Below the pieces are notes generated by a model. The model had not been told where the DNA came from. It was given only the letters and a program-made list of their open reading frames with translations, and did not search any database. From assembly GCA_039720395.1 (NCBI GenBank), contig CM077823.1, forward strand, positions 37,616,536 through 37,680,535: a stretch of 64,000 bases of DNA, written 5' to 3'. A program made the position numbers and the translations under genes. Numbering within the stretch: position 1 is the first letter of the stretch; every line of letters begins with the position of its first letter. Shown piece by piece: positions 31,904-61,587 of the stretch. Source of the DNA: Liquidambar formosana. Taxonomy: Eukaryota > Streptophyta > Magnoliopsida > Saxifragales > Altingiaceae.

Positions 31904-33001
31904 TTAGATGGTAGGAGAGACAACCCAAAGAAGATGATTTGCAGGGAAGAAATGGCACACCGGAGAGGATCCCGGTTTGACGCCGAGCAATCGAAACGAA
32001 ATGTGGTCAGGGTTCCAGCCAGATGTGTCCATATGGCAAACAGCAAAAGCTTCCACCTCATCTCCATTCTCACCACCCAGTGAAGTCTTGAAAACCTTGT
32101 TCCCACTCTCTTGGCTATGGCAATAGGAAACTGCATAAGGATAAGGCATGGGATGACATGCTACAATCTTTGGAGCAAATACCTCTTTGGGAACTTCCAA
32201 GATAGTGTAATTATATTGAAGGGTGGGTGATTTTCTGAGGTGGGTAGTGGTTAAAACTTCGAAATGAGTCTCCAAGCTGAAGATGCCACGAATTAAATCG
32301 AGCATGGATTCAAGGGAGGTAGCACAGAATTTGGTCTCTCCTTTGATGGGTTTAGCTTCACATTGTGTGAGTGTTTCTTTTATGGCTTTGGCTTGGGGAG
32401 AATCTTTGAGAGATTGAGAAGAGGTGGAGAAGGTTTGGGAGTTCTTTCAAAGTGAAAGGAATGGAATCAGCTTCCTCACTAGGGCAAGAAATGAGGTGAA
32501 GAAGAAGGTTCTACGCTGGGGAAGTAGATGGGCAATGTTTTTCCTGCATATAGATCCTTCAAGGTGAAGAACCCCATCTTTGAAGCCTCCATGTGATCCA
32601 TGTGGGTTGATGGTTGTGCATGCTTATGATTTTTATTCATCATTGCTTCGTTGTTGACGAAATGTTGTCCTCCCACCGAGAATTTTGTTGTCGTCAAGGT
32701 TTTTCGTCTTCAGATGTTGACTTTTTTGCCAGTTATGTTCAGATCTCTGCCTGACTCCATTGCCATGGCCACACTGCATTCAAATTGACTTGTATGAGAA
32801 TTCACATATCAGAAACTGCAAGCTTTTTTTTTTTATTTTTTATTTTGGGTTACATAAATTGCGAGGTATCATAAATCTCAAATGTACCTAGCCTAGGATG
32901 GAATGGCACAAAACACAACTATACTTTGTTTAGTAGCTAGAGATTACCATTAAGAGCAACAGAGAAAAGAAGAAGATCCATCTAGTGCAGCCAAGAGCCA
33001 T
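31904..33001 (-). pseudogene. BURP-domain gene, broken by frameshifts
   Basis: Exon 1 (33001-32948) still encodes a good signal peptide (MALGCTRWIFFFSLLLLM) and has a proper donor. Exon 2 (from 32773) is broken in at least three places: a frame change in the variable region (about 32650-32720), a one-base insertion creating TAG near 32483, and another frame change near 32405. The last 130 codons are open and keep all four Cys-His pairs (CHPMPYPYAVSYCH, AVCHMDTS, SPVCHFFPA) and the following Trp. It closely resembles the intact BURP genes at 39074 and 49855. Decay looks recent since the domain is otherwise well conserved. Alternative splicing around the breaks cannot be excluded. Confidence 0.85.
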
Positions 33002-34647
33002 TCTCCTTCCCATCCTCTCAACCTCTTTGGTAAGGGAAGGAGATTTCATGAAGATCAGGTATTATAAGCAGGGGAAAGACTCCCCTGCACCTTCTTATGA
33101 ACCCCTTTAGTTTTACTAGTATTACCTAGCTTCTTCATTTTTTTATTTTATTTTTATTTATTTATTTATTTTCTCTCTTTTGGCTAACAGGTAATGCAAC
33201 CCTTCAGTCTGATTAAATCTCTAGAACATAGGTAAGGCCATTGCCCATGGTAGCTTGTAAGTTAATGTTCAAGATGAACCCGTCTGGGTTGTATGAAGTC
33301 TTGCATTATAAGTAGTTCATAATGTCAACATTTTCCCTTCTAAGAGTGAAGTAATTACTTTCAAATGATGGGAGTGTATATTTGTCTTTGAATAGCATGA
33401 AGGTTGAACTTGCCCTGCCCATGAGATTGTTTAAGATAATATTGACTTCCATTTCCCCCATTGGTTTCCAAATAGTTTCCACAAATTTCATAAGTTGAAC
33501 TTTTAACTATACATTTACATGACTTTCACACTAACTATAAGGCGCTTTAGGAAAAATACCAAGGATATGTGTGAATGTGTTCCGTATGAATTGACTTATC
33601 CCATCGTCTTTTACATACAATTTTTATATATACAAATTCATCATCATAAACTGGGCCATCACCATTATGGCAGCTATATATCCTCTCAATTAGGTGAAAA
33701 TTTGAGATGGTGCAATTTTAAGAAATACCAAAAATTGACATAAAATGTCATTTGTGGTTACAGATTTAATTTTTCTAATACGTCCAATTATAGATGATTT
33801 ATTTGTAGCTCTAATGCAACACAAACTTTAATCGAGTCATTCAAATTTTCATGGGACATTCAAATAAGCCCTAGTTTAAATCTCGGATTATTAGAAGGGT
33901 AGTGGTATTCTTGCTTCACTTTGACCTTCCCACCCTCCACATTGGGAGTGCAAGGAAAAATAATAAATACAAACGGGAGACTCCTATAAAAAACAGCATT
34001 GTTAGATACATCAACACTCTGTTGTAACTCTTATGCTTCAAACCATGCTGGCAATTGGATAGTGTGGCGAGCTTATCGGAGGATGTTGTTCTCAGCGGAT
34101 AAGGTTGAAGGGGATGGAAATATATGCACTTTCTTATCTTAATTTTTAATAGCGAATTGTTTATTAAAAAAAAAATACATGAGCCTATTTTATTTGTTTT
34201 TGTGTTTTTTAATTTAATTGTCCGCCTCATTCTCATATAAGTTGGGCCGAAAGGCTAAAAAATTGCCTATAGCATTTTTTCCCCACAAAAAGTATTCCAA
34301 AGATTGTAAAACGAACGAGGCACAAAATTACTTCAAAAAGATTTAGCTTTTGACGCTTAGAGAATTTTCTGGATAAGTCCTCTATTCCATTTTTTTCTTG
34401 GATCCAAAGAACTATCCAACAAAGACTGACTAGAAACACCACAAATTGAGTGGTCACGGTCCACCATTGAAGCACATTATAATGTGGTCGTCCACAACAG
34501 GGTTACGGGCCTATTGGTCGTCTGTCCTTTGGGAAAGCCCTTTTGCTAAGCTTCTTAAAGAGTCCAATAATACAAGACACATAATGTGTTCCATTATTGA
34601 ATTTTTTTTTTTTTAATGAATTTAATAAACCAACTTTGATCAATTCC

Positions 34648-34772
34648 AAGCCACAGGATTAGTCTAGTGGTAAGAGAAGGTGGGATAAATATTAGGATTG
34701 GAATAAATGAGGAGTACAAATCCCTTCTATTCAAGCCCTAAGAACAAAAAAATAAAACAAAACAAAACAAAA
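34648..34772 (+). mobile_element. SINE with A-rich tail
   Basis: An A-box-like TAGTCTAGTGGTAAG (near 34660) and B-box-like GTACAAATCCC (near 34716) are followed by an A-rich tail of AAAACA repeats. Flanks AACTTTGATCAATTCC (34632-34647) and AACTTTATTCAACTCC (34773-34788) look like a diverged target duplication. This is the layout of a tRNA-derived plant SINE. Confidence 0.65.
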
Positions 34773-34958
34773 AACTTTATTCAACTCCCCCCACCCCCTT
34801 CCCCCCTTCTCTTTATTTCTCACTATATGAAATAATGGGATCTAAAGAAGACCAGGGAAGCATAAAAGGTATGGAGCATGTTGGTGTTGGTTTCAGCAAT
34901 AATTGAGTGAGCCCAGCCTATGCGCCAAAATCCAGCGTGCAACACATGGTTCCTTCTA

Positions 34959-35657: not shown

Positions 35658-36208
35658 TAGTTACTTCCTTCACCTTTTATTTCCCCTGGTTTTGTGTGTT
35701 ACCACGCTAGGATAGCACAGACCCAAAGTGGGAAAAACTTTATATATCCTCTTTAAGACTCAAGGGCCAGAGTAATTATGGATGGCTTTAAACTTAAAAA
35801 GAGTGGTATCAAATTGGGAATCCAAATCATTGTTTGGATAAAGTCAGGCAAACCATGTGACGACTTTATTTTTTTCTTTTTCCTTCCACCCCGGACCCCT
35901 CTTTTTTTTCGGTGGCAAAAAGTGATGTTATTGTGTCGCTTCTCCATAATGATAGAAAATTATCCAAGAACAAATAATTGTGCTTTTAGATCTTCCATGG
36001 ATACATATTGAGTTGAAAAAAAAAAAAGAAAAAAAAAAGAAGATATATTGACGGTATCAAAAATATTGATATCGATTTATATATATGATGTATATTATTA
36101 GTTAATTTACATATATGATAGATATTATGAGTTAAGTATGTAAAGTTTGTGTGAAACATTAAAAAATAATAAATTATAGACTAATAATAAATTTAAAATC
36201 AAAATATT

Positions 36209-36243
<35 letters not shown>

Positions 36244-36247
<4 letters not shown>

Positions 36248-37300: not shown

Positions 37301-37360
37301 TGAGCAAGGAAAGATCCTCCACACCACACAAATTAGAAAGTAGTAGGAGCTAACAAAGAA

Positions 37361-37883
37361 ATGAAAATTTTCCTAGCTTTCCTCACTCTCTCATCACTTC
37401 TCTTGGTAAGCATTTTCATTTAGCAGTCAGTGATAATAGTAAGAATTCTGAGAGTTCCATCGATCTTTCAAGCTATTGATTTTAATGAAATAAAGGGGAA
37501 TCAATGCTTGTAGGATGATATGAAAATTTTGGTCTTTTTTTTTATTTATTTTTATAATCTTTTTCTTTTTTGGGCAGTTTGCAGGCACCATAGATGCAAG
37601 AAAAGACCCTGCAGGGGAGTATTGGAACAGCATCATGAAAGACCAACCAATTCCAGAAGCAATCCAAGGCCTTATTCATCCAGAAACAAGCAAAGACGAC
37701 GAAGAAGGCCATTTGTTCAAAGAGAACCGTTTTGTTAAAAATTTCAATTCCGATGGCTTCCCTTTCTTTTATAGAGGATATGCTGATCAGCCTAAAGAAG
37801 AGAAGCCATCGGTTGGGAATGTCGAGCCAAGGCACTGTGATGATGCCAAACCAGCAGAAGGTGGTATTACATTTTCTAATTAA
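37361..37883 (+). CDS. Organ-specific protein (DUF2775-like), small secreted repeat protein 1
   Basis: Two exons, 37361-37405 and 37578-37883, join in phase to give 116 aa. Exon 1 plus the first codons of exon 2 encode a signal peptide (MKIFLAFLTLSSLLL then FAGTIDA). The family hallmark follows: ARKDPAGEYWNSIMKDQPIPEAIQGLIH. After it come one repeat-like unit (RFVKNFNSDGFPFFYRGY) and a decayed second unit lacking Tyr (EPRHCDDAK). The protein is secreted; its biochemical role in the family is not firmly known. A BURP gene lies convergent 1.2 kb downstream. I infer it may be a peptide precursor for that BURP protein, with the block around FPFFY as candidate core. Family call is confident, function is not. 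Confidence 0.88.
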
Positions 37884-38677
37884 AGGATTTTGAGCGTGGC
37901 CAAACTAATGTTCCACTCTTAATCTATGTATGAGGTAGAATGTTTTTTTTTCTTTGTTTTTTTTTTCTTCGCGTGTATGAGGTAGAGAGTCCACGTTGCA
38001 TTGAATGTACCTTCTTCTTTTTTTTTTTTTTTTTTTTTTTTGAATGTATAAATGGGAGGGGTGTGTACCCTTAGCCTATCCTTTAGCCCCTCTTCCTTCA
38101 TCACTAGACTAGCTCTAGTGGCTTGTATTGTAACTATTTATGCATGTGTGAAGATGAATCGATGGAAGCAATTGGTGATTTCCTTTATTTTGGCCTATAT
38201 ATAGTTTTATGCAAATTACATGCATTCCAATTCGTGCATTTGTACGGAATTACGAATCTACTGGTCTTAGACCTAGTATTTAAGCAATTTTAACTATTTT
38301 CCTTACCCTTTTTACTCATACTTTCTGAGATCGAAACAAAGCCCAACAGAATAACAAGATGTGTTTTTGTTCCCTTTTAGTTGTTCTTCTTTTGCTACTC
38401 TGGCACCCCAATTTGAGAATCTTTACGGATCTCTTCGTCTTAGGCCTCATTGCTTTCGTCATAAATCAGACCATAGGGTGTAGTTACTGTAGTATTAGCC
38501 AAAATACATGACAATGCCCTTTCGATTTTCTACGTATTCCAGAAATTCACTTCTTTTTTCTTTTCCGAAAGACCTTTTAGTTCGATCTGTTTGAATCTCA
38601 GAAAGATCGTGGGAAAGGAAAGTGTTAAAATTGGCTTAGAAATGGATTCCATTCCCCCCCCCCCTCTCTCTCTCTCT

Positions 38678-38712
<35 letters not shown>

Positions 38713-39073
38713 AAATTTAAAATTTTTCTTTGCTTTGCCGGAGTTTTCCAATATCCAAACAGAGGCTTCAAGATCACTTTAGATTTCGATTAATTTCATT
38801 CTCGAGACGAATGTGAATTAAGTTAAAAACTTCACTAAGTAATTTGAGAATTTTGTGGCAGTCTTTTTAACAAGGCATGATCCTATTGGTCTTAATTTTT
38901 TTTTATTGCTATTTTACAATGGGGACACAATAAAATCAAAGTACCTTCATACCCATACTAGCTACATATTTTAACATTACCACTCACTAGACATACAAGC
39001 ATGCATGATTAACTAGACTACTACAACCTATAGGATTAGAACCCTAATGTACATAACGATTACAATCACATTA
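37884..39073. other. Convergent spacer between DUF2775-type gene 1 and BURP gene 2
   Basis: 3' flanks of both genes plus long T-runs (about 38017-38041 and 38681-38711) and a CT run. Nothing else is visible. Confidence 0.5.
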
Positions 39074-40236
39074 TTAGATCAAAGCTGGCGATGGAACCCA
39101 AACGAGATTATCCGCCGGAAAGAAATGGCACACCGGAGAGCTTCCGGGCTGAATTGCGAGCACACGAAACGCTGCGTGATCATGGTCCCAATGGGAGGTA
39201 TCCATGTGGCATATTGCCACAGCTTCCACTCTCTCCCCATCCTCACCGCCTAATGAAACCTCAAACAGCTTGTTCTCACTCTCTTGGCAATGACAATAGA
39301 AAACTGCATAAGGGTAAGGCATGGCATGACATGCTACCATTTTGGGAGCCAAAATTTCTTTGGGCACTTCCAAAACGGTGTAGTTTTGTAAATTCTTGGC
39401 TGGCTTTGTGGGGATTTTAGTGGTTAGAACTTTAAGATGTGTGTCCAATCCTAAGACGCCACGTGTAAAATCGAGCATGGATTCTAAGGACGTAGCACAG
39501 AACTTGGTCTCCCCTTTGATAGCTTCAAGTCCGCATGAGTTGAGGGTGTCTTCCATGGCTTTGGCTTGATAAGAGCCTTGAGGGAAAGAGAAGAACTCAA
39601 GAAGGTATGAGAGGTGTGTCAATGAGAAAGGAATGGAGTCAGCTTCTTCTTTGGGCAACATATGAGGGGAGTTGGAAGGGTCTTTGTAGGGCAAGTAAAT
39701 GGGCATTATTTTCCCAACTTTGAGATCATTAATGGTGAAGAAAATTCTTGCTGAAGGGTCCATGTGATCCATGTGAGATGATGGGTGATCATGAACATGC
39801 TCTGCATGCATCCCTTGATGGCCATCATCAACAATATCATCTTGCTTAGCATAATTTCTTTGATGGTCATCTATGGGATTTTGTTGCAAAATTTGTACCT
39901 GCTTTTCTTCATGCTTTGCACCCATTGTTCGATGACCATGACCGCCTTGCTTTGCGTCGATCCATATCTGGTCATCCATGGCATGTTCTTGCAAATCATG
40001 TTCCTCTCTGCCTGCATCTATCCACTGTCCTTCAGCTAAATCCCTGGCGGCGATACTGCTTTGGACGCACTGAAATGAATCCAATAGTTACAATGGTTTC
40101 ATGAATTAATCATGAAATAAATGAGTGTAAAGTTAGGGAAAGAAGTACAGTTCAATGAAGATTTGAAGATAGAGATTACCAATAAAACAAGTGAAACTAG
40201 GAAGATGAGGCTCCAAGGAGCAAAACCAAGACCCAT
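39074..40236 (-). CDS. BURP-domain protein 2, candidate copper-dependent peptide cyclase
   Basis: Exon 1 (40236-40180, 19 codons) encodes a signal peptide, MGLGFAPWSLIFLVSLVLL. Exon 2 (40069-39074) follows in phase, for 350 aa. Residues 29-128 form a variable His/Asp/Gln-rich region with degenerate repeats of the type D-D-x-H-Q and two IDA motifs following Trp35 and Trp55. The BURP domain runs from about 129 to the end. It has the complete signature CH-x10-CH-x26-CH-x25-CH-x8-W, with Cys at 266, 278, 306 and 333 and Trp343. BURP proteins are secreted plant proteins; some members are autocatalytic or trans-acting copper-dependent peptide cyclases. The signature residues needed for that are present. 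Substrate is unknown; the convergent DUF2775-type gene 1 is the nearest candidate. Confidence 0.93.
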
Positions 40237-43939: not shown

Positions 43940-44339
43940 GGGGAACGGCTATTGCAACCCCCCATTCTTATAAGCCCACCCCTTTCCTTTTGGTTTTTAA
44001 GATTTCATGAAAAATATAAAAGGTTTTTGCAAAAACCAATCACTTGGTTCACTAGAAAACATCATTTTGAACAACTTTGCAGAAGAAAGTTTTTCCAAAA
44101 TCTATCGTTTAGGTAGACTTTTTGGCAAAAAATGAAATAAAGGTTATAAATGACTAAAAAGTATATTTAAACGATAGATTTAGGAAAAACTTTCTTCTAC
44201 AAAGTTGTTCAAACTGATGTTTTCTAGTGGACATCACGGCCGGTTTTCATAAAAACATTTTATATTTTGCATAAAACCTTAAAAACCTAAAGGATGGGGG
44301 GTGAGATAATAAGAATGGGGGGTTGCAATAGCCGTTCCC
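43940..44339. mobile_element. Foldback MITE with 9-bp target duplication (Mutator-like)
   Basis: Long terminal inverted repeats start GGGGAACGGCTATTGCAACC and end GGTTGCAATAGCCGTTCCC, and most of the 400 bp can fold back on itself. Exact 9-bp flanks TTACTTGAA (43931-43939 and 44340-44348) match the duplication size of Mutator-like elements. It is non-coding. A related element is at 51832-52527. Confidence 0.82.
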
Positions 44340-45942: not shown

Positions 45943-46670
45943 ATGAAATCCCTCTTTGCTTTCTTCACCCTCTTCTCACTTATTCTGTTGGTAAGCATTT
46001 TCTTAATAACTAGCATGCATAGCTCATTTCTTCCATATATCATCACTACCCTATGATTTATTTTCTCTTAATTTTTTCCTCTTCTTTTTTTTTTTCTTTG
46101 GGTAATCAAATAAACAATACCATAAATTTTGTCTTAGAACTCGAAACTTGATCTGATTGACCATACTCAGCCAATTTTCAAGTTAATTTGTTTAAATTAT
46201 TGAATAAAATTCAAGTTGGTATTGCGAAGCTACTCATAATTCCACTTCAAAAAAAAAAAAAAAAAAAAACCTTAGAGACTGTTCAAGTATGTCATTAATT
46301 AGTCCTCGTATTTATTATCTTAATTTGTACACTCCATATATATTTCTCTTGTACTAATTCTTCTTCTTGGGTGCAGTTTGCCAACCTCAGCGATGCGAGA
46401 AAAGACTTGGAGGCCTATTGGAAGACCATAATGAAAGACCAACCCATGCCAGAAGCAGTCAAGAATCTTGTTCATGAAGATCCAGAGTTCCACATGAACG
46501 AAAAAAACATCCACAAATCTTCCATGGCGATTGAAAAGGATCATTTTCTTAAGGATTTCGATACGGGGTCTAATAAAATAATATACCACACCCATGGTGA
46601 GCCTCAAAAGCCAAGGCATAACGATGAGACGAAAGAAGAGAAATCCTTTGTGAAAAATATCAAGCCTTAG
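45943..46670 (+). CDS. Organ-specific protein (DUF2775-like), small secreted repeat protein 2
   Basis: Exons 45943-45990 and 46377-46670 join in phase to give 113 aa. The signal peptide is MKSLFAFFTLFSLILL plus FANLSDA. The conserved block reads ARKDLEAYWKTIMKDQPMPEAVKNLVH. A single clear repeat unit follows (HFLKDFDTGSNKIIYHTHG), and the C-terminus restarts the unit consensus (EEKSFVKNIKP) then stops. This is the most divergent of the four copies and lacks the usual Gly before Tyr-Trp. It pairs convergently with BURP gene 3, 3.2 kb downstream. The NKIIY segment is in the same position as FPFFY in gene 1 and DVTIY in gene 3, so it is the inferred core if these are peptide precursors. Confidence 0.87.
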
Positions 46671-49600
46671 ATGCATGTTCCTGCGTATAATCAGGAACAA
46701 AGAATGCGGATATATGCGCTGTTTGATTAGAAAAAAGTACGAAGCGAAGGGATCATGTTTTTGTACATCATCCAGTGGTAGTGTGTTTGTGATTAGTGTT
46801 TTTGGAATTTCTTCTTATAGGAGAATATAAGTAGAATCATAAGAATAATGTAATTGAGATATACCAAAAGTGATTTGGTTTGGTGTATCTTAATTCCAAT
46901 ATTTAAGATTGGGTTAAGGTGAATATTTGATTAAATCTAGATTACTTCCTTTCCATAATCTTCCGCACTTCATCATCTGTTGTTGAAAATTTCAATTGTG
47001 TTTTTTTTTGTTTTTTGTTTTTTGTGTTTGTTCTTAAGCTACTTTGAATGTTTGCTCATCAAGACTTGCACTTGATAAAAAAAAAAAAAAATACTTAGAA
47101 AGTTGACGTCAATGTTTACCTGCAGAAAAGTTAAGCTACTGGAGCTACATAAGCAATCTGTTTTTTTCTTTTTTTTTTAAAATACCCAGCTTCGTTCTGA
47201 TCATCAAGTCCTGTACTTGGAAAGTTGAAAAGCACCATCATTTTTCATGTTCAATGTCTCTGAGTTTTAGGAATGTCAAGGCTTTTCTTTCCTTAATGGA
47301 GGGTAAAAATGGTCAAAGAAGGATTTTTCTAATTAAGAGATGTGAAGTATGTAATTAACCAGAGAAGATGATCTGTCTTTATAATCATGCCTCTTTCTAT
47401 GCCTTTGCCGTATAATTGGACCTTATCATCATAAAAATATTTTTGGGACCCACCGAACTATAGGTCTTACCAAATATATATTTGTTTTCTAAAAAATCGG
47501 CTCCACTGAATGGTCTAAGCCATTTAATTTTAATGAAGTTATTTGAATAATAGTGAAATTTCGATAATGTTTCGTAAAGAAAATAGTTTCAATTAAATGG
47601 TTAAAATCATTCAAATGAATTGATCTTTTGAAGACAAGACTCATAGTTTGATCGGTCCAATTGTGATATTTATGGTGCTGCCAAGGCTTAATCAAGCAAA
47701 AGAGGCATAAAAGAGGAGGAAAGGAATCTCTGCTAGTCTAAAACAAATCACTCTTCAAAGATGTTTTCTATGCTACCTTTGCTAGCTTAATGCTCAAAAC
47801 TTCCACTATTTTTTTAAAAATATTTTTGAGAGAGAGATAGATCGAGAGACCAAGAATTTAACTATAAATTCTTTTTTTTTTCCTTTTTATGTTGGGTTAT
47901 GGAGTGGGTTAAGGCCCAACTACAAAACAATGCCAGTAAGGGGATCCTTGCTAATTGAGCTATCCCTTAAAGTTCAATGATACGCTTTTTCTCTACTTAA
48001 AAATGCAAAATATGGAAATAGGGGTTTCAAGAAGCATATTTTTTTAATGAAAATAAAAAACTTAAAAGCGGTGTTACTAATGCCGCTTTTAATTATTCTG
48101 AAAGCGCTGTTACCAACACTTCCTTTACTTATACTGAAAGAGGCGTTAATAACGCCACTTTTATTGTAAGTATTTGTCAAGGCCTGTCACTGAAATTCGA
48201 AGCATTCACACCAACAGCCGCCTCTCCTGCTATTAGGGTTGTCGCACGCCGTTCTCCGCACTCGTCGATTCGCCGGTATCCGCCCCCACCGTCCTCCGTC
48301 GTCAACAGGTAACACACTTGAGTGAGTTTATAATTCTTTCAAGTCTACATTTTCAATTTTTATTGAGGGTTTAGTGTGCCAATTCTGGTATTTTTCTGTA
48401 GAAGACCACCATGTGGTGCTTAACAGTGTGTGGAAAATGTGGGTTATATTCTTTTGTTTCAGACTTCTAGTATATCTGACTCTCTTAGCTATGGTTGCCC
48501 TTTCAGGGTTTTGTTCTCTGATGTGATGGAAGATGTGGGTTTTTTTTTTTCGTCTTTGATTCTGAAGGTTTCAATTTATTTTGAATTTGATTGTTGGGTT
48601 TAGTTTCTAGTTATCTATTATTGCAGGAGCTACAGTTCAGTGGCTCAGAGACAGTCTTGGGATAATTAGTAGTGAAAGTGAGATTGAGGAAGCATTCCCA
48701 GCCAAATCTCCTTGAATCAACAGCGGCCCATTGACACTTCAATTGGCTAACCAATCAGCACATGAGTTAGTCTCTTTGAAAATATGATGAGAGGGTCTCT
48801 CCAAGCCCATGACCCAGGCAAGTAAAACTGTAATAGCCCGTAACCCATTCATTAATCCCTTCTTGGGTTTCCTTTGGAACACTCACCATCACTACTAATT
48901 TTGACCCACCCTCTAGTGGTTTGCCATTGAATGAAAAAAATGTGGCAACAAAAGCTGGCATGAAAAGGGTTTAAATTGTCTTCTTTTTACTTGCTTTGAA
49001 TCGATCTCTATGCAGTTCTAACAGAACATGAAATCCCAAATTTAACGTTATTCGACGAATTTAAAAGATTTAAATTTATTTTAAAACCTTGGTGATAGGT
49101 TAACCATTTAGAAATTATCATGGTTACAAAGATGGATGCTGATTTGCATGCTGAATTTTGAATGGAGACCCACGTTGGTAGGATCAAGTGGAAAAAAATT
49201 CCTGTAGTAGAGACTTAAGACTGAAATTTTTCCTGTCTTGTGTTGGACAGTGGACACACAAAAGTATTGCTCCGTAGGTTATGGTGGAAAGGTTCCTAGA
49301 CCAGTGGTTCTAATTTCGGGTCTAACATTTAGATAGAGTATGAAAGGGCATTCCCAATTGAAGGCATAAAAACTAGAGAATCATATAGCGCTGTTATAGT
49401 CATAAAATGGTGCACGATAAAGGAATTTATTCCAGACTCTGAGGAAAAAGAATCAAGAGAAGCTTTTCATTTTATTTTTTTCAAAAAAAAAAAAAAAATC
49501 CAATATATTGTTATATAATTTCAAAAAACCATTAAAATATTAATCACAAACTACTCTGCATGACCGATACGGCAATATGGGAGGAATTCATCATGCCAAC

Positions 49601-49854
49601 AAGGCACAGCAATGTGATTTCTACACTGGTCGAAAACACACTGTAAATAGTAGAACCGTATTTACATCAAATAGCCATGTTTTACATTTATTATCACTTT
49701 AATAAAGGCACAAGTAGTAGCAGCATATTTTCTCCTAATCCAGCCCCCAAACACCCAAAAAAAAAAAGAAGAAAAAAGTGCACAGCTCACAAACAAATAA
49801 ACAAACAGAGCAAAAATAGTAGCAATAGGACTCAATAATTACATAACAGTCACA
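46671..49854. other. Convergent spacer between DUF2775-type gene 2 and BURP gene 3
   Basis: It holds the second copy of the AGCGCT/leader-like repeat (48050-48310) and otherwise AT-rich sequence with A/T runs. No coding gene is supported. Confidence 0.5.
48050..48310 (+). repeat. Leader-like segment with an AGCGCT array, copy 2
   Basis: AAAAGCGGTG, GCCGCTTTT, AAAGCGCTGTT and GGCGTTAATAACGCC pairs (48062-48162) precede a stretch with ATTAGGGTTGTCGCACGCCG, TCTCCGC and CGTCAACAG|GTAAC (donor near 48310). The order matches copy 1 at 30240-30490. Each copy lies about 1.5 kb from the stop codon of a BURP gene, so copy and BURP gene were probably duplicated together. Confidence 0.6.
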
Positions 49855-51145
49855 TTAGTACCAATCCAAAGTAGGTGTTGGAACCCATATGAAATTATCT
49901 GCATGGAAGAAATGACACACAGGGGAGGTCCCTGGCTCGACCCCAAGCACACGAAACGACGCATGATTACGGCTCCAATGAGAAGTATCCATGTGACAAA
50001 CAGCAACAGCTTCCACCCTATCTCCATTTTCACCACCTAGTGAAACCTTGAACACCTTGTTCTCACTCTCTTGGCAATGACAATAGAAAACTGCATAAGG
50101 GTAAGGCAGGGTATGACATGCCACCATATTGGAAGCTAATACCCTTTTAGGCACATCCAAGACAGTATAGTTTTGGAAAAGGGTAGTTGATTTTGTGAGA
50201 TGGGTAGTGGTTATAGCTTTGAATTGGGAGTCCAATCCGAAGATGCCACGCGTGAAATCGAGCATGGACTCTAAGGAGGTAGCACAGAATTTGGTCTCCC
50301 CTTTGATGGGTTTAAGCTCACATTGTCTAAGGGTGTCTTCCATGGCTTTTGCTTGTGGGGAGGATTGAGAGAAGGAGAAGAGTTGAAGAAGGTGTGGGAG
50401 TGCTTTTGATGAAAAGGGAATGGAATCAGCCTCTTCTCTAGGCAACAAATGAGGAGAATTTGTTGGGTCTGTCTTGCGAAAATAGATGGCCATTTTTTTC
50501 CCTACCTTTAGGTCATTCATGGTGAAGAACACTAGGGCTGAAGGGTCTATGTGATCCATGTGGGATGATGGATGATTATGGACATGATTTGTATGCGTCT
50601 CTTGATGGGCATCATCATCTTGCTCAACATGAATCTTTTGATGGCCATCCATGTCATGTTGGGAATTATATATGCCTTTATGCACATCGGTATCACCCTC
50701 ATTTTTGCCATCCATGCTATGAAGCCGCAAGACATTAGTCCCTTTGACATCTTGCATCTCTGTATGCTTGTTTTCAGGATTATGATGTTCTTTGGTCATT
50801 TCCATCGCTCCATCTCCATGAGTACACTGCACCCAAAAAAAAAAAAAAAAAAGAAGCATAAACTTGGATATCGATCGAGATGGAATAACACACTAATATC
50901 CAAAATTCAAGCTTGTGTGAATCATAAACTAAATGGACCAACAAGTGATGAATGATAATGATCATCATCAACAACATCATGAAGTACATAAGATCAAGAA
51001 TTCCAAGATTTATATGTGTACATATATGTACATATATGTATATGATAGCCTACTTTCTTAATTAATTATAGAGTATATATAGTTTGGAGATTACCGTCAC
51101 AAGCAGATAGAGGAGGATAGCCCAAGAAGCAAATCTAATACCCAT
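49855..51145 (-). CDS. BURP-domain protein 3, candidate copper-dependent peptide cyclase
   Basis: Exon 1 (51145-51095, 17 codons) encodes MGIRFASWAILLYLLVT, a signal peptide. Exon 2 (50826-49855) follows in phase after a GTGCAG acceptor, for 340 aa. The variable region (18 to about 118) is rich in His, Met, Asp and Gln, with repeats such as MDGHQKIHVEQDD and AHQETHTNHVHN. The BURP domain has the full signature CH-x10-CH-x26-CH-x25-CH-x8-W, with Cys at 254, 266, 294 and 321 and Trp331, the same spacings as BURP gene 2. It differs by a C-terminal DWY extension. It is convergent with DUF2775-type gene 2. An ATG inside the exon 2 frame at 50859 lies in the intron and is not the start. Cyclase function is inferred from family knowledge. 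Confidence 0.93.
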
Positions 51146-51831: not shown

Positions 51832-52527
51832 GTGGCTATTGCAACCCCTTAACTTTATGTACACGTACACTCCATTTATTTTTAAGTTTTTCAAGATTTT
51901 ATGAAAAATATAACTCTCCGTTCCACAAAGATAGGCCATTTTTGTCATTTTTTTTGTCCCAAAATGTTTGTCCATTTTGAAAAGTCAAATCATAATTGTT
52001 TTAAATTGCCTCCACTACCCTTTGTTATTTCAATATTTACTTTCAATATAAAACCCAATACAAAAACGGAGATGGTATTTTTGGAAAGATGGATCTTAAT
52101 AAATGATACGTCAATCCAATGATAACATTTTCTTAAACTCCGTGTTTTGTCAAACATGGCCTATCTTTATGGGACGGATGGAGTAAAAGATTTTCATAAA
52201 AATTGGTCGCATTATCTTCTAGAAAACATTATCTTGAATAACTTTGTAGGAGAAAGTTTTTCCAAAATCTATTGTTTAAGTGGATTTTTTCGCCATTTAT
52301 AATTTTCGTTTGTGTAAAAATGAAATAAAAACTATAATGACCAAAAAGTCATCTTAAACGATAAATTTTGAAAAAATTTTCTTCTACAACACTGTTCAAA
52401 ATAATGTAATTTTCTAGTGAACATGATGCTAGTTTTCATAAAAACTTTTTATATTTTTCATAAAACCTTGAAAGTAAAAAGAAAAAAAGAGATTTACAAA
52501 TAAAGATGAAGGGTTGCACTAGCCGCC
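51832..52527. mobile_element. Foldback MITE interrupted by a second MITE
   Basis: The ends AGTGGCTATTGCAACCCCTT and AAGGGTTGCACTAGCCGCC, and internal blocks such as GAAAGTTTTTCCAAAATCTA and TTTTCATAAAAACTTTTTATA, match the element at 43940-44339. Its left arm is interrupted by a Stowaway-like element (51913-52183). Confidence 0.72.
51913..52183. mobile_element. Stowaway-like MITE nested in a foldback MITE
   Basis: The left end ACTCTCCGTTCCACAAAGAT and right end ATCTTTATGGGACGGATGGAG are inverted repeats. TA flanks the element at 51911-51912 and 52184-52185. It is 271 bp and non-coding. The surrounding foldback element is continuous once it is removed. Confidence 0.75.
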
Positions 52528-53654: not shown

Positions 53655-54720
53655 ATCTTGCCACCCTCTTACAGGCTAGTTATGGAAATATTAAGATATA
53701 ATAGAATAAAAGATGGACACAAAAAGAAGGGACATGCCTTGAGTTTATTATATGCCACAAAACAAAACAATTATGAATTTCTCAAGCACTTATCATTTTG
53801 TTGAATTAACTATAGTATAGTTGGATCATTTTGTTGAATTAACTATAGCGTAGTTGGAGTAGTTGGGTGTCCCTATTGCCATGCGAAAAAATTGGTTGCA
53901 CCTCCAATTAAAATCTCTATTTTGCAGTTTGTATCATGCAATAGAAGTAAATTTGGTATAAGAATTATTGGTGAAGTTTCAAAACTTGTAACTTATGAGG
54001 CTTTTAATTTGGGAATTAACACATATGACTGTTGGACTGTTACAAGCCCAATTAATTTGGCTGTTATAACTTTATTGCACTAGCCGTTAGGGCATTAAAA
54101 CCCAAGACTTAGATGCCTATATAAAGACACACACCAAGAGACCTAAAACATATTAGACACACATACGTTCTTCTCTTCTCTTGTCTCTACATTATATTTT
54201 TTTTTCTATATCTTTTTCACATATTTTGAGGCAACTAATCGAGGACGGTTCAAATTTCTCTTCCTGTGAACGTACTCATAGAATAGCTAGCTGCGAGCTT
54301 CTGGGGTTGTATCTTGGAGGTGTTGTCGTCCGCCAGATCTTGTACGTAGGGAGGTGATAACTCCTTTAGGACAGTGTGAGCACACGTGCCTTCCCACAGG
54401 CCAACTATTCTAACTTTATCTCTTTAATTTTCTCTCATGTTATTATACTTTATAATTTTAATTGTTATTACTTGTGTGATTCGATATTTTATATTGTGAA
54501 ATTTTTCAATTTTTATTAATTATTTGAACATTTAGATCAATTACACAGAAATTTCCCCAACATTTGAATCCTCCCACTGATATGTAATTATGTATGCTAT
54601 ATGTCACCCTCTTACAAGATATGGATATATTAAGATATGATAAAATCAAAGATGGATAGATCGAGAAATGGGGAACATGCCATGATTTTTATGTGCTAAA
54701 AAAACAATTATAGAACACTT
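53655..54720. repeat. A-B repeat module, copy 2 (interrupted)
   Basis: Block A (53655-53800) and block B (54598-54720) match copy 1 and copy 3. Between AAGTAAATTTGG (ending 53953) and AATCCTCCCACTGATATG (starting near 54567) there are about 610 bases absent from copy 3, which include the solo LTR. Confidence 0.75.
54030..54562 (+). mobile_element. Probable solo LTR (Copia-type)
   Basis: The segment begins TGTTGGACTG and ends CCCCAACA, the TG..CA inverted ends of an LTR. It has a TATA-like CTATATAAAG at about 54117 and a pyrimidine-rich stretch downstream, as an LTR promoter would. The paralogous segment at 59.7 kb lacks it. No clean 5-bp target duplication was found and about 76 bases to its left are also extra, so the ends are uncertain. 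Confidence 0.55.
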
Positions 54721-55290
54721 TGGACGTGGGATTCGGAAAGATGGTCCGGGGTCCATTCCCTTAATGCAATACTTACATAAATAAATAAATAAATAAAAAC
54801 ATAGGGGAAAAAAAAAATCAACTTTTTGACTGGACTGGAAAAAGGTTTAATGCCATGTGTTTGTGGATGAATCTTAGCAATTTATTTATTATTATTTTTT
54901 TTTAAACAAAGAATAGAGCTAAAAGCATTAAAGGATAGCAGATAATCCAAACTAGGTTAGAACCCTAAGAACTCACCATCGTTTGCCATCAGCTCCAAAT
55001 GTTGTTATAAATGAAAGAAAAGAAAATGAAAGAAAACTTATAACGGGATAATGAAATAGAAAAAGAAACCTATTTGGTCTTGATGGTTTACAATGCCATG
55101 ATTCAACTCACAAAGATAGATATTAAGAAAGAATAAAATAAAATAAAATAACAAATAACCTATAAAACGAACTGATATTCGATCAAAATGTTCTGCAATT
55201 GGTTGAATTTTTATGTTTCTCAAACAGTCCCTTACTCTCATCATTTACGGATTTACCATCTCATGCAATTGTTGTTTCATAGAATTAAAT

Positions 55291-55834
55291 GTAAATTGCA
55301 CTTAAGGGTCTAAAGTTTGGATCAAGTTTCACTTTAGGGTCCAAAATTTAAATTGCGTCAATTCAGTACCTAAATTATTAATTGAGTTGCAATTTGGGGC
55401 TGTTGTCAAATTTTTTTATATTTTTCCTACTTTACCTCTTTTATGGATTTGAAAATCCTATTTTACCCCTATCAACAACTAATATATTTTTATATTTTAA
55501 CAAGATTTAAATCAGTCTTATCTTCTTTCTCTCTCTATATTACCTCTATCAATATCTAATAAACATTTATATTTTTCATTTACAAAACACAAATCTGACG
55601 ATAGAGTGATTCAGATCTGGTTAAAATATAAAAGTTTATTAAATGTTGATAGGGGTATAATAGGGTTTTCAAATCCATAAAAATGGCAAAGTAGGGATAA
55701 TAAATAAAATTTTGAGGGCAGACCCCAAATTGTAACTCAACTAATAATTTGGGTACTCAATTGACACGATTTAAACTTTGAACTCTAAAGTGAAACTTGA
55801 CCCGAACTTGGGACCCTTAAGTGCAATTTACCCT
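55291..55834. mobile_element. Mutator-like MITE with long terminal inverted repeats
   Basis: The left end GTAAATTGCACTTAAGGGTC and the right end, reversed, give inverted repeats of roughly 80 bp that share TCAAGTTTCACTTTAG. AGAATTAAAT flanks both sides (55281-55290 and 55835-55844), a 9-10-bp duplication. The paralogous segment near 60440-60455 has no insertion. One end of the same family lies in the Helitron near 22960-23050. Confidence 0.8.
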
Positions 55835-56086
55835 AGAATTAAATATAGAGTAATAGGAGTGATTGTGTATTTGGGTTCCATGTGCCCCTATCGACCAAGT
55901 GAAGAGATAGTAGCATCTAATGAATCTCTCTTTTGTATCATGCAATAAAAGTAAAATTGGATCCCCCCCAGGCCCCAACCCCACCACATTACAAAAAATA
56001 GACCACCGAAATTATTGTCCTAAATGTGTAATTAGTTGCCCATGTAAAACTCGTGTTTCGGAACTGTTAAGAAAATGTGTTTTCCC

Positions 56087-56094
56087 TATAAATA
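56087..56094 (+). promoter_or_regulatory. TATA box of DUF2775-type gene 3
   Basis: TATAAATA in the context CCCTATAAATAGAATGATGG lies 83-90 bases before the ATG at 56177. The duplicate at 60707-60714 is identical in the core. Confidence 0.75.
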
Positions 56095-56176
56095 GAATGA
56101 TGGAGGTTCCATGGGAATTAAGAAAAAAAAAAAAAAAAAAGGAGAGCATAGGAGTTTTTCTAGAGTTGGTGAAGAA

Positions 56177-57146
56177 ATGGAGTCTCATCTTGCTTTGTTC
56201 ACTCTTCTCTCACTTCTATTGGTAAACATCTCTCTTAAATAAACAAGCGATCCTTATATTATTCCCTCTATGTCTTAATTCGCACTAAATTTTTTTTTTA
56301 CAATATAATTTTGTCAACTCAAAATTCACAAGAGTCAACTGTTTTTTGTTTTTTGTTTTTATCAGCACAAGAGTTGGCTTCATTCTGCCAATTTGTAAAA
56401 CAAGTGAGGATCTAAGAAAACTACGTTGATTTTGAAAAATGATTCCAAACTTTTGACGTCAGCTAGATAGATTTGAACCATGTAGTTCGCTCCATAGTGG
56501 CCAAAAAAATTGTATTAGGCTTTAGTTGAGTGGATTTTTTTTTCTTTTTTTTCTTTTTTCCCTCATGTACGTGATTGATAATGATAATTCTAAGATTCAA
56601 TCCATTTTATTTCTTTCCTTTTCCTTCACCTTCTCAGCAACCAAACAAAGAATATATTAGATGATTTATAAGTTTTGACCCTTTTTTTCTCTTCTTGAGC
56701 AGTTTGCTACCACTGTGGGTGCAAGAAAAGACCCAGGAGAATACTGGATAGCTGTTATGAAAGATCAGCCCATGCCAGAAGCAATCCAAGGCCTTATTCA
56801 TCATAGTTCATCGCAATCTCTTTCCAACGACAACACTGACTGTCATGAAGAGAAACCTTTTGCTAAGGACATTGAACCAAGACCCGATGTCACAATTTAT
56901 GTCACAATTTATCCAGGTTATATCAAATCAACAGATGAGAAATCCATTGTTAAGCATTTTGAACCAAGACCCGATGTCACAATTTATCCAGGTTTTATCA
57001 AATCAACAGATGAGAAATCCATTGTTAAGGACATTGAGCCAAGGCCTAATGCCTCAGTTTACCACGATGATGTTGATCCTAAAGAAGATAAGTCATTTGC
57101 AAAAGATTTTGAATCACCTCCTGATGTTACTTTTTATCAGGGGTAA
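56177..57146 (+). CDS. Organ-specific protein (DUF2775-like), secreted protein with four repeat units
   Basis: Exons 56177-56221 and 56703-57146 join in phase to give 162 aa. The signal peptide is MESHLALFTLLSLLL plus FATTVGA, followed by the conserved block ARKDPGEYWIAVMKDQPMPEAIQGLIHH. Four tandem units of about 20-30 residues follow. Each has a lead of the type E/DKS(I/F)(V/A)KD(F/I)E, then P-R-P or P-P, then a short block ending in Tyr: DVTIY (followed by VTIY), DVTIY, NASVY and DVTFY. A spacer such as PGYIKSTDE or HDDVDPKED follows. The repeats are the family's hallmark; strong conservation of the frame and variable residues before Tyr would suit a multi-core peptide precursor, which is inference. 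No BURP gene is seen on its 3' side. Confidence 0.9.
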
Positions 57147-57671
57147 GGGAGAGAGAAGTCATGCAATAATGTATGGAAATCATATAAACTATGTACAAAC
57201 TAGGTGCTTCTTGTTTGTCTAATGTAAGGTGTGAGGTATGGATCGGCCTTGTAACGTAGGTGGTATCTTTTCTTTTCTTTGATGGACGTTGGGATTTCAA
57301 ATATTGACCCTAATTTCTTAAAAAGTGGGTTTGGGAGGATCCATCCTATGGAGAAGGGTATACGGTTTTATGTTCTTGATTGTACCAAGGGGGGGAAAAA
57401 GTGTGAGGTATGTGATAACGCTTGCTTAAATAAAGAAGCTTGTGATGATGATTGAATAAAAGTACCAACTTTGGTTTATCCTAAGCTCTTGATATTGTAA
57501 TTTTGAATTTTTTTTTAGCAATTGGAGCATTCTCATGGGGTTAAGTATTTTTTTTTTTTAATCTATTTTGGAGAATTTGATATGAGCTCATTCTTATTTA
57601 TTTAAGGGAGCCAAGAGAGCTCTCCAACGGGATTAGTTAAAATACAAAATTCGTTCTTCAAGTCAGAGTTC

Positions 57672-57750
57672 CAACAGAATAAGCTATTTTTTCCTTATAT
57701 TTCCTCTATTTTAGAATAAGCTATTTTTTCCTTATATTTCCTCTATTTTA
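57672..57750. repeat. Two-copy direct duplication present in only one paralogous segment
   Basis: AGAATAAGCTATTTTTTCC followed by TTATATTTCCTCTATTTT occurs twice in tandem here, but once at the corresponding place near 62113-62155. Confidence 0.88.
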
Positions 57751-58499
57751 GCTAAAAGAGTCAAAAGGGCTAGCTACATCTGAAGAGCCTCAAAGGGCCT
57801 AACTATTTTAAAGAACTAGATAGTTTGCCTATTAGAGATACTGCTACTCTCTACTTTAGCAAAAAGTTAAAATAGATAGTCTCTCAAAGATGCTCTTAGC
57901 CAACCAAAAAAAAAAAAAGAAAGAAGATAAAAAGTTTTTTAGCACCTATTGTCATAATTAAAACATAATTGGAAATTATAAGATGTTCAAATTTAGGTAC
58001 TGTTTTAGCTTCAACATTTTTGTTTCTAGGGATTAGCACTATGGCTTGAGTTTGAACTGGGTTTAGACATATGCCCAGTGCATGGAACAATCTCTCAACA
58101 ACAACGATGCCACCATGCTAGGATGATTTAATTTTCTTTCTTTTTTTCCTCTGGATTGATATGAAATGTTCACAAAAATTCACTGTCAAAAGGTTCAAAT
58201 GCCCAACCCAACCAAATGCTGCTGTAAAATTTAAATTAGGAACAAGACTTATGATTTGTTACTATATATGATTTTCTTGAAGCAAATTGGATTACTCAAC
58301 GACTACAACCTATCTCCACCTCCACCCAAACCAAGCAACGCCATTCCTCTCTCTCAAGCTTTCTCTGTGTTCTTTCAATCTCCACTTTCAATTGCAAACA
58401 TCTGTGCAAAAATCACATCTGAATCAAAAGCCCTCAAATTTATCATAATTACGTCACTATCCAGTTGATAGAATAAAATTCAAACTATGCTTTGAACAT

Positions 58500-58900
58500 A
58501 TAATAAGGAAGGTTATACATATGGCTACATAGAAATGAGAAAAGCTCCAGTGATGTAGTCCACCACCAATGAAAGTCAGTATGATAGAGCCAAAGATTTT
58601 CACACTTGTCTGCAATGCAATTGCCTTCTCTAAAATGTGAGAACATTGAAATTTTATAGATTTTGAGTGAAATTGAACAATTGTTGTTGAATTTGATTCC
58701 AACCAAAGTTTGTGCCAATCATTCTACCATGCACATTCAACACCAATCAAAGTAGCTAGAAGCTCTGCATAAAATAATGTTTGAAGTAAAACCACCTTTA
58801 ACAATTCCCCGGCAAGATCGAAATATTCTCGCTGCCAGCACAAGGCCCGGATTACCAACTTTACACTTCCCATGGGAAGGATGTGCACAGGTTTTGAAAA
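58500..58900 (-). pseudogene. RNase H-like relic of a non-LTR retroelement, copy A
   Basis: On the minus strand the frames read FYAELLATLIGVECAW, then NDWHKLWLESNSTTIVQ after a stop codon. In another frame comes HFREGNCIADKCENLWLYH and TDFHWWWTT. These match the RNase H-like domain found at plant LINE ends (AELLA.L.G...AW, then W.E.DS, then H..REGN..AD). In-frame stops and a frame change show it is inactive. The copy at 62890-63390 retains a segment missing here. Confidence 0.7.
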
Positions 58901-59449
58901 ATCACCATCATTATGACTAGAAGAATGGAAAATAATTAGATAGATTAAATCATGAACCATCCACCTTCACTATTTGCACTTAGCCATATGCATCTCATCT
59001 GGTATCAGATCTAAAACTTCTACTAGAACATATATTGCTGGCACAGAAAAAAATATATAAAATTAAATTAAAATCAGACCATTCATGCTGAATTATTGAA
59101 GACAACTTGCACACAATTGACGCACTGAAGATGTGAAAATAAACCCATTTTGAAATTTTAAAGAAGGTAATGCCTCTAATTGCAGCAAACGTTTCAACAG
59201 TGCAATGTAGGAGTAAAAAAAATTTAAAACTCCGTTCATAAATACTCCATATGATCTATTTGTATGATATAGTCAAAACACGCAGATATAAGCTTCTAGT
59301 GGCACTTTAATAAAGCAAAATCGTAAAATTGGAAAGTGAAAACTAATAAGTCATATCACAATGCATTAACTAGCTCACTTTAAAATGCGTGTCCTAATCA
59401 AAGTGGCTCACAAATTTAGGATGGAGGGAATAATAATCACACAAGATTG

Positions 59450-59880
59450 AGATCTTGTCACCCTCTTACATGATATGGAAATATTAAGATATAATAGAAT
59501 AAAAGATGGTCACAAAAAGAAGGGACATGCCTTGAGTTTATTATATGCTACAAAACAAAACAATTAATTATGAATATCTCAACCACTTATTGTTGAATTA
59601 ACTATATATAGTATAGTTGGAGTACTAGCTGGTTGGGTGTCACTATTGCCATGCGAAAGAAATGGTTGCACCTCCAATTAAAATCTCTATTTTGCAGCTT
59701 ATACTGTGCAATAGAAGTAAATTTGGACCCCTCCCCACTGGACTGATATGCTATCACCCTCTTACCAGCAATGGATATATTGATTAAGATATGATAAAAT
59801 AAAAGATGGATAGAGAAATGAGGGACATGCCATGATTTTTATGTGCTAAAATACAAAACAATTATAGAACACTTTGGTCA
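59450..59880. repeat. A-B repeat module, copy 3
   Basis: Block A (59450-59590) and block B (59745-59880) match copies 1 and 2 and lack the LTR found in copy 2. It lies about 0.9 kb upstream of the fourth DUF2775-type copy. Confidence 0.78.
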
Positions 59881-60706
59881 TGGAATTTCGGAATTGTCGT
59901 CCAGGTCCATTCCCTTAATGCAATATTTACATAAATAAATAATAAGTAAATAAAAAAAACATAGGAAAAATAAAAAACAAAAAACCAACTTTGACTGGGT
60001 TGGAAAAAGGTTTAATGCCATGTCTTTGTGGATGACTCATAGCATTTTTTTTTTTTTTAGACAAAGAATAGAGCTAAAAGCATCAAAGGATAGCAAATAA
60101 TCCAAATCAGTTTAGGACCCTAAGAATTCATCATATATCATTTGCCATCAGCTCCAAATGTTGTTATAAATGAAGGAAAAGAAAATGAAAGAAAACTTAT
60201 AGCGAGATAATGAAACAGAAAAATAACCCCATTTGGTCATGATGGCTTACAATGCCATGATTCAGCTCACAAAGACAGATATTAATTAGAAAGAAAAAAA
60301 GAATAACAAATGACAAATGACAAATAACCTATGAAACAAACCCGTATTTGATCAAAATCGTCCGCAGTTAATTGAATTTTTATGTTTTTCAAACAGTCCC
60401 TTACTCTCATCATTTACCATCTCATGCAATTGCCGTTTCGTATGACTAAATATAGAGTAATAGGAGTGATTGGGTAGCTGGGTTCCCTGTGCCCCTATCG
60501 ACCAAGTGAATTAAGAGATAGTTGCATCTAATGAATATATCTCTCTTTTGTACCATGCAATAAGAGTAAAATTGGATCCCCCAGGCCCCAACCCCACCAC
60601 ATTACAAAAAATAGACACCGATCGAAATTATTGTCCTAAATGTGTAATTAATTGTCCACGCAAACCTCGTGTTTCGGAATTAACTGTTAAGAAAATTTGT
60701 TTTCTC

Positions 60707-60714
60707 TATAAATA
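60707..60714 (+). promoter_or_regulatory. TATA box of the DUF2775-type pseudogene
   Basis: TATAAATA is conserved with the gene at 56177, so the promoter core survives although the coding region is broken. Confidence 0.68.
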
Positions 60715-60793
60715 GAATGATGGAGCTTCCATGGGAATTTAAAAAAAAAAAAAAAAAAAAGAGTATAGGAGTTTTTTTAGAGTTGGTGAAGAA

Positions 60794-61587
60794 ATGGGGT
60801 CTCATCTTGCTTTGTTCACTCTTTAAATAAAGAAGTGATCCTTATATTATTCCCTCTACGCTTTAATTATCACTTGAAATTGTTTTTACAATATAATTTA
60901 TTCTGCCAATTTGTAAAACAAGTAAGGACCTAAGAAAACTACATTGATTTTGAAAATATTTGAACGTATTTGAAAAATGATTCCAAACTTTTGATGTCAG
61001 CTAGATAGATTTGAACCATGTAGTTCGTTCCATTGTGGCCAAAAAAATTGTATTAGGCTTAGTTGAGTGGATTTTTTCTCTTTTCTTTTTTCCTCATGTG
61101 ATAGATAATGATAATTCCAAGATTCAATTCATTTTATTTCTTTCCTTTTCCTTCACCTTCTCAGCAACCAAACAAAGAATATATTAGATGATTTATAAGT
61201 TTTGACCGCTTTTTTCTCTTCTTGTGCAGTTTGCTAGTACTGTGGGTGCAAGAAAAGACCCAGGAGAATACTGGATAGCTGTTATGAAAGATCAGCCCAT
61301 ACCAAAAGCAATTCAAGGCCTTATTCATCATAGTTCATCCCAATCTCTTTTCAAAGACAACACTGACTGTCATGAATAGAAACCTTTTTGCTAAGGACAT
61401 TGAACCAAGACCCGATGCCACAATTTATCCAGATTATATCAAATCAACAGATGAGAAATCCATTGTTAAGGACTTTGAGCCAAGGCCTGATGCCTCGGTT
61501 TACCACGATGATGTTGATCCTAAAGAAGATAAGTCATTTGCAAAAGATTTTGAATCAGCTCCAGATGTTACTTTTTATCAGGGGTAA
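60794..61587 (+). pseudogene. DUF2775-like copy 4, broken
   Basis: This is a recent duplicate of the gene at 56177. Exon 1 now reads MGSHLALFTL then TAA: about 30 bases are missing between CACTCT and TAAATAAA, removing the rest of the signal peptide and the splice donor. Exon 2 (from 61230, acceptor TGTGCAG) keeps ARKDPGEYWIAVMKDQP. It then has GAG changed to TAG at 61377-61379 and a one-base insertion in the following T-run. Three repeat units (with DATIY, DASVY, DVTFY) remain open in a shifted frame to 61587. One unit found in gene 3 is absent. The product would not be made normally. Confidence 0.88.

Follow-up and report, generated by a model that had tools for sequence, protein, structure and literature searches.

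The segment 31904-61587 of a 64,000-nucleotide stretch of sweetgum DNA (Liquidambar formosana, assembly GCA_039720395.1, contig CM077823.1, positions 37,616,536 to 37,680,535 of the forward strand; the whole stretch is hereafter called the window, position 1 being its first letter) carries genes of stand-alone BURP proteins interleaved with genes of the DUF2775 (PF10950, Organ_specific) family, and is probably a split-burpitide locus, in which the DUF2775 proteins would be the precursors and the separate BURP proteins their cyclases. The split-burpitide reading of such BURP and DUF2775 pairing is already published (PMC11991032, PMC12186524, PMC12871766), and split burpitide pairs have been proposed or proven in these papers and in two others (PMC11250218, PMC11253845); here and below, what is taken from cited papers refers to passages of them. 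To this, the sweetgum locus adds an unusual core and a question of register, i.e. the distance between the recognition anchor and the core tyrosine.

In the proposed pathway, three DUF2775 proteins, named here OSP-A, OSP-B, and OSP-C, would enter the secretory route as secreted precursors, and their anchor residue would be bound by BURP2 or BURP3, each a stand-alone BURP protein secreted alongside them. The copper centre of the BURP protein would then oxidatively join the phenol oxygen of the core tyrosine to a side chain located two or three residues upstream, after which proteases would release a small ring of the cyclopeptide-alkaloid type. The predicted ring sources are FPFFY (or PFFY) in OSP-A, NKIIY (or KIIY) in OSP-B, and serine/threonine-type (S/T-type) cores in OSP-C. 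Since S/T-x-Y precursors are widespread in plants without a known product (PMC11250218), the locus matters beyond sweetgum: it is compact enough to be a good test bed for what decides ring formation, be it the enzyme, the core, or the register of 9 residues described below, and it supplies concrete peptide masses to seek in sweetgum. For the cores with two hydrogens removed, the calculated [M+H]+ values are 718.3235 (FPFFY), 571.2551 (PFFY), 648.3715 (NKIIY), 534.3286 (KIIY), 608.2926 (DVTIY), 551.2460 (NASVY), and 642.2770 (DVTFY), and forms with a C-terminal styrylamine would be lighter by 46.0055.

Candidate cyclases and precursors of the locus

The locus contains two intact BURP genes and one broken BURP copy on the minus strand, together with three intact DUF2775 genes and one broken DUF2775 copy on the plus strand. 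A sequence-only reading of this DNA had counted three BURP and four DUF2775 genes: the families hold, PF03181 being found by Pfam in all three minus-strand genes and PF10950 in OSP-A, OSP-B, and OSP-C with scores well above the cut-offs, but the number of intact genes is five, not seven. A set of seven working genes was thus rejected, BURP1 and OSP-D being broken. The two complete convergent pairs announced by that reading were recovered exactly, namely OSP-A/BURP2 (37361-40236), with 1191 bp from stop to stop, and OSP-B/BURP3 (45943-51145), with 3185 bp; the CH-x10-CH-x26-CH-x25-CH-x8-W signature is likewise complete in BURP1, BURP2, and BURP3, even though the BURP1 gene is broken, and the signal peptides or remnants of them correspond to hydrophobic N-terminal stretches, judged by eye.

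In each intact DUF2775 gene, a phase-0 intron separates a short signal-peptide-like first exon from the main one. In OSP-A (37361-37883), the spliced model joins exon 1 (37361-37405) by a GT/AG intron to exon 2 (37578-37883), which encodes an SST-like protein (PF10950, 40.5 bits for a cut-off of 22.5). OSP-B (45943-46670) comprises exons at 45943-45990 and 46377-46670 and encodes an SST-type protein (42.9 bits), and OSP-C (56177-57146) comprises exons at 56177-56221 and 56703-57146 and encodes an ST-type repeat protein with four units (153.6 bits). On the opposite strand, BURP2 is made of a signal-peptide-like exon 1 (40180-40236) and an exon 2 (39074-40069) with a PF03181 score of 271.6 bits, and BURP3 of the corresponding exons at 51095-51145 and 49855-50826 (277.9 bits). 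The two spliced BURP proteins are letter-identical to the public L. formosana proteins L1049_014968 (P0104) and L1049_015867 (P0085), respectively. When the window was searched with the five intact proteins (E up to 1), no further convincing BURP or DUF2775 copy was found, the weak matches at 27-28 kb falling in a low-complexity frame.

As for the broken copies, BURP1 (31904 to about 32640, minus strand) has an open 3' half (31904-32305; 146 bits to PF03181 positions 91-215), while its upstream part is scattered over three frames with stops. OSP-D (60794-61587, plus strand), a relative of OSP-C, lacks the end of exon 1 that carries the splice donor in OSP-C, and its exon-2 frame is interrupted at CHE*. 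It sits in a tandem block (59747-63894) akin to the OSP-C region (54593-59494), the collinear pieces of more than 140 bases being 81-92% identical; OSP-C and OSP-D are therefore not independent evidence of pairing.

The precursors are easily overlooked in the public annotation. Indeed, the sole Liquidambar protein returned by the DUF2775 searches was L1049_015662 (P0214), in which a piece of OSP-B (46494-46598) is joined to 48163-48309 and 48625-48666, whereas OSP-A and OSP-C were not returned; this entry (window 46494-48666, plus strand) looks like a mis-joined model that holds part of OSP-B.

With CH spacings of 10, 26, and 25 and a Trp at +9, BURP2 and BURP3 fit the PF03181 class rule CHx10CHx25-27CHx25-26CH. 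They are regarded as stand-alone because a search with one pattern found no core unit in their N-terminal parts, the single match in BURP2 lying inside the domain; a fused, autocatalytic pathway was accordingly rejected for both. The predicted BURP3 model (mean predicted local distance difference test score, pLDDT, 75.1; predicted template modelling score, pTM, 0.65) was submitted to Foldseek, and among solved structures its only matches at E ≤ 0.001 belong to the peanut BURP peptide cyclase (four chains, PDB 8sy2/8sy3; E 2e-11 to 8e-11, probability 1.00, template modelling (TM) score by target 0.62-0.66). In sequence, all four Cys-His pairs of BURP3 align with this cyclase, whose His residues bind copper (PMC12186524). 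Besides, the anchor Phe of the recognition sequence in published split systems fills a pocket that includes Pro242 in ArbB2 (PMC12186524), and the equivalent Pro (first His of HH-A +5) is present in BURP2 and BURP3, as it is in 101 of 117 signature-bearing BURP matches among the 120 listed of 893. The pocket of ArbB2 also includes Met160, at His -77 by ArbB2 numbering; a Met is located at His -76 in these BURP proteins, and may or may not be its counterpart. The four CH pairs, the modelled BURP3 fold, and the conserved Pro support a putative cyclase role for BURP2 and BURP3.

Further study of the BURP phylogeny points to two old lineages, with reserve. In a tree of 33 sequences, BURP2 groups with Malania, Cephalotus, and Rhamnella (RR22695) proteins and one protein each of Nyssa, Cornus, Ilex, and Olea, behind a branch supported at 98/97; BURP3 is found on the other side of this branch with 14 of the 15 other BURP proteins encoded on the same contig as a DUF2775 gene, the remaining one being a second Ilex protein located on the BURP2 side. 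A quick tree of 58 sequences gives the same split, and holding BURP2 and BURP3 together lowers the log-likelihood by 38.9 (p-AU 0.028 in the approximately unbiased test, an optimistic value as the pair was chosen after the first tree, with an unsettled bootstrap). The origin of the two genes by recent tandem copying was rejected on these grounds, with the same reserve. Since both lineages co-occur on one Ilex contig and among the Rhamnella tags RR22685-22695, the two-lineage cluster may itself be old.

Three classes of core

At the level of motifs, OSP-A, OSP-B, and OSP-C fit the layout of a precursor, with a recognition anchor and a Tyr-ended core behind the signal-peptide-like stretch read by eye. 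In every unit, the anchor is Phe (Ile in two units of OSP-C) and is followed, after a linker of four residues, by a core of five with Tyr in last place. Three core classes are found side by side (core coordinates being reckoned from the spliced models). OSP-C, whose tandem EFEPRPxxxxY-like repeats are those of the PF10950 ST type, contains four S/T-x-Y units, with predicted cores DVTIY (56886-56900, followed by a second VTIY), DVTIY (56973-56987), NASVY (57048-57062), and DVTFY (57123-57137). OSP-B contains the single SST core NKIIY (46572-46586), and OSP-A the single hydrophobic core FPFFY (37758-37772) in the unit VKNF-NSDG-FPFFY, its Tyr being 9 residues from the anchor Phe.

By eye, OSP-B agrees with the SST consensus Rx5-7YWxxxMxxxPxPxxIxxLL...FxxxFxxxxxIIYH, which describes a single core (PMC11991032), with two departures, Val for Ile after PxP and LV for LL. 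A third departure is one extra residue between the second F and IIY, which agrees with the 9 of the motif DFDxxPxxxxY (PMC11991032). Its NKIIY is followed by HTH, like the [IV][IL]YHxH of Diospyros, Carya, Macadamia, Corymbia, and Protea proteins; as this corresponds to the published SST consensus (PMC11991032), such conservation is not new. OSP-A retains the remainder of the SST consensus, FxxxF included, with LI for LL, and displays FPFFYR where IIYH is expected.

The rarity of these cores was evaluated in 94 DUF2775 proteins (84, plus 10 from a second search), the first search having been seeded with an ST protein. A strict unit pattern recognises 188 units in 81 of them, 175 of which have Ser or Thr at the position two before the Tyr; this pattern misses cores, as 13 of the 94 proteins have no unit although some plainly bear cores (Rosa P0077 and P0083). 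By direct search, neither FPFFY nor PFFY was found in the 94 proteins, and the word FPFFY was not found in the literature searched. Judging from these sequences, the FPFFY core of OSP-A looks unusual, and hydrophobic cores appear to be rare in the DUF2775 family. The Populus ST proteins P0001, P0005, P0010, and P0018 carry the hydrophobic core QLFLY among S/T cores, a candidate for a detectable cyclopeptide.

Linkage in other plants and weighing of the explanations

In line with the survey of other plants proposed in the sequence-only reading, the linkage was found to recur: the two families share a contig in 15 of the 22 species bins that contain both (based on 81 of the 94 rows for DUF2775 and, for BURP, on 84 of 120 listed out of 893 found), and in 13 of 20 once L. 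formosana and the mixed bin 'jgi' are removed. Sharing was deduced from equal-sized contigs within one species, rows lacking a contig or a usable species name being dropped, and the survey concerns this one pair of families, without a control pair. The shared contigs of Cornus, Rosa, Dovyalis, Dillenia, Durio, and Quillaja are chromosome-sized and carry little weight, but those of Corchorus (60.5 kb) and Ilex (1.07 Mb), as well as a further one of 25 kb, are small. Neighbouring gene tags are observed in Nyssa (F0562_020590/020591), Pterospermum (Ptkin10aG0143000/0142900), Corymbia (BT93_D1267/D1268), and Reevesia (Repub04eG0060700/0061000), and six consecutive tags of Diplodiscus (Ditri08aG0120600 to 0121100) follow the order BURP, OSP, OSP, BURP, OSP, OSP. 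Altogether, positional tags from a single annotation cover both families in six other species, and in five of these the two genes lie within three tags of each other, Craigia being the exception and Carya being excluded because its rows come from different annotations. A random pair among tens of thousands of genes would seldom lie that close. For precursors of split burpitides, a gene position near a stand-alone BURP gene is usual, not obligatory.

This recurrence bears directly on the idea that two unrelated tandem families are adjacent by chance. Tandem copying is indeed active here, as seen in the OSP-C/OSP-D block, and seven of the 22 bins show no shared contig, but the neighbouring tags in five other species, the small shared contigs, and published reports of the pairing from Arabidopsis, Medicago, coffee, and jujube make a chance arrangement highly improbable. 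The earlier argument that repeated pairing speaks against chance is supported by the other plants, although within the window OSP-C and OSP-D cannot be counted separately.

Several observations nevertheless weigh against a split-burpitide locus, foremost the register. Counted from anchor to Tyr, each of the six units of the window has a spacing of 9, and among the 94 DUF2775 proteins the first Tyr is at distance 9 for 150 of 160 anchors and at distance 11 for none (anchors with a Tyr within the next 14 residues, those followed by fewer than 14 residues being excluded), versus 11 in all four verified 20-residue substrates (ArbA2, two CamA1 peptides, and CamA2). In OSP-A and OSP-B alike, the residue that lies 11 positions from the core Tyr is Lys, which is not a possible anchor. 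In Pfam, the four verified 20-mers gave no match, such peptides being too short for the profile. No comment on the 9 versus 11 spacing was found in the passages of the cited burpitide papers, and the difference may be known already. Moreover, S/T-type cores have no known product (PMC11250218, PMC11991032), and no contig is shared in seven bins (Camellia lanceoleosa, Camellia sinensis, Carya, Craigia, a Juglans hybrid, Lycium barbarum, and Parasponia). The BURP3 fold match has a root-mean-square deviation of 6.2-7.5 and a TM score by query of 0.39-0.40, which is attributed to the disordered N-terminal part of the model. The ratio of non-synonymous to synonymous substitution rates (dN/dS) is 0.21 between BURP2 and BURP3 (last 235 aligned codons), but as the broken BURP1 fragment also scores low against them (0.33 and 0.25), this ratio fails to separate working from broken genes. 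Finally, the 500 bases upstream of the intact genes hold no telling shared promoter word, a single low-complexity 8-mer occurring in at least four of the five, and a non-exhaustive scan of the window recognised no tailoring gene. It is mainly because of the register mismatch, and also because two of the seven genes are broken, that the cyclisation of these cores by the BURP proteins is a step that we infer and not a demonstrated one. Of the original claim, the pairing itself finds support in published gene pairs, and DUF2775 proteins have been published as candidate precursors (PMC11991032), which lifts the doubt once voiced on this point.

Two other explanations accept the linkage but assign a different role to part or all of the proteins. 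The BURP and DUF2775 proteins could cooperate otherwise than as enzyme and substrate, e.g. in storing protein or assembling the cell wall, in which case the linkage would reflect co-regulation. In this context, AtUSPL1 is reported to be connected with protein storage vacuoles, and SST1-GFP with the endoplasmic reticulum and vacuole (PMC11991032), and the cited papers, in the passages concerned, report no activity for a DUF2775 ST/SST-BURP pair. Set against the four CH pairs retained by BURP2 and BURP3, the cyclase fold predicted for BURP3, and a Tyr held at a fixed distance from the anchor in 150 of the 160 family units, as expected of a recognised core, such a role appears rather improbable. 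Somewhat less remote, but still unlikely, is a scenario in which only the non-S/T precursors, i.e. OSP-A and perhaps OSP-B, are cyclase substrates, ST proteins such as OSP-C having another function (for instance a vacuolar or cell-wall one, under stress or in vascular tissue) and being linked by shared cluster ancestry. This would agree with the hydrophobic nature of the verified cores (PMC12186524) and with the lack of a known molecule from S/T cores even though their precursors are common (PMC11250218). However, OSP-A and OSP-B share the spacing of 9 with OSP-C, and in many species an ST-type precursor is found on the same contig as a BURP gene, a count that the ST-seeded first search favours.

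Within the preferred split-burpitide reading, a more specific version can be put forward, tentatively and with more doubt than confidence: one locus might give rise to three kinds of cyclopeptides through two anciently separate BURP cyclases, FPFFY from OSP-A with BURP2, x-I-I-Y from OSP-B with BURP3, and S/T rings from OSP-C, the ST and SST precursors being read in a shorter register of 9 instead of 11. If so, the shorter register would imply an as yet undescribed cross-link geometry and would account for the lack of a known product from the common S/T-x-Y precursors, while the FPFFY cyclopeptide would be one not seen elsewhere and the x-I-I-Y cyclopeptide would represent the widely conserved SST type.

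Surroundings of the locus and known split-burpitide systems

Upstream of the locus, an open frame of 433 residues (27129-28430, plus strand) contains acidic Tyr/Ala/Asp repeats (YADACADA...) and three similar SPSxxSYLKKKR-like blocks. It has no Pfam match at E 1, and may encode a further repetitive, precursor-like protein or simply be of low complexity. At 43941-44339 (with a relative at 52184-52525) and 55291-55831, there are two long imperfect palindromes with about 80% self-complementarity, probably inverted-repeat transposable elements. Among the flanking frames (2173-2688, 10079-10384, 17417-17674, and 19140-19415), one is Mediator subunit 29-like, with a score under the Pfam cut-off, and two correspond to Clp protease exons; the one at 10079-10384 presumably resembles NUS1/LEW1, as judged by eye. 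Rfam gave no match on 28000-64000, and a tRNA scan of the window none either.

To place the locus among known systems, stand-alone BURP proteins have been reported in 89% of eudicots, often adjoining candidate precursors (PMC12186524), and ArbA2/ArbB2, CamA/CamB1, and ZjuPrec/ZjuBURP are working split pairs. Among the papers listed by the literature search, none deals with such genes in Liquidambar or the Altingiaceae, as judged by title and, for PMC8707630, by passages. The closest arrangement in Arabidopsis is that of SST1 (At1g49310) and USPL1 (At1g49320), which are adjacent and co-expressed: here too, a single-core DUF2775 gene stands beside a stand-alone BURP gene, with FxxxF and IIYH as in OSP-B. 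Whereas Arabidopsis has one such pair, and Brassicaceae no ST proteins (PMC11991032), sweetgum combines ST, SST, and FPFFY variants with two intact BURP paralogues. In Medicago truncatula, the MtSST2/MtST3/MtST2 region also brings ST and SST genes near three BURP genes (PMC11991032), in another plant family and with a likeness drawn from gene content, not from core sequences.

The arabipeptin locus ArbA/ArbB of Coffea arabica resembles the sweetgum locus in its several precursors, its three BURP genes, one of them truncated, and its stand-alone cyclase, as well as in its secreted precursor with a Phe-anchored recognition sequence and a Tyr-ended five-residue core; it differs by an anchor-to-Tyr spacing of 11 versus 9, and it is biochemically proven (PMC12186524). 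Finally, in Ziziphus jujuba, the FPIY precursor contains fourteen predicted cores, versus one in OSP-A, and its product is proven; nevertheless, a BNM2-type BURP gene lies beside this precursor, and the hydrophobic, Pro- and Phe-bearing cores of ZjuPrec-FPIY/ZjuBURP and ZjuPrec-FIPFY are somewhat like the FPFFY of sweetgum (PMC12871766).

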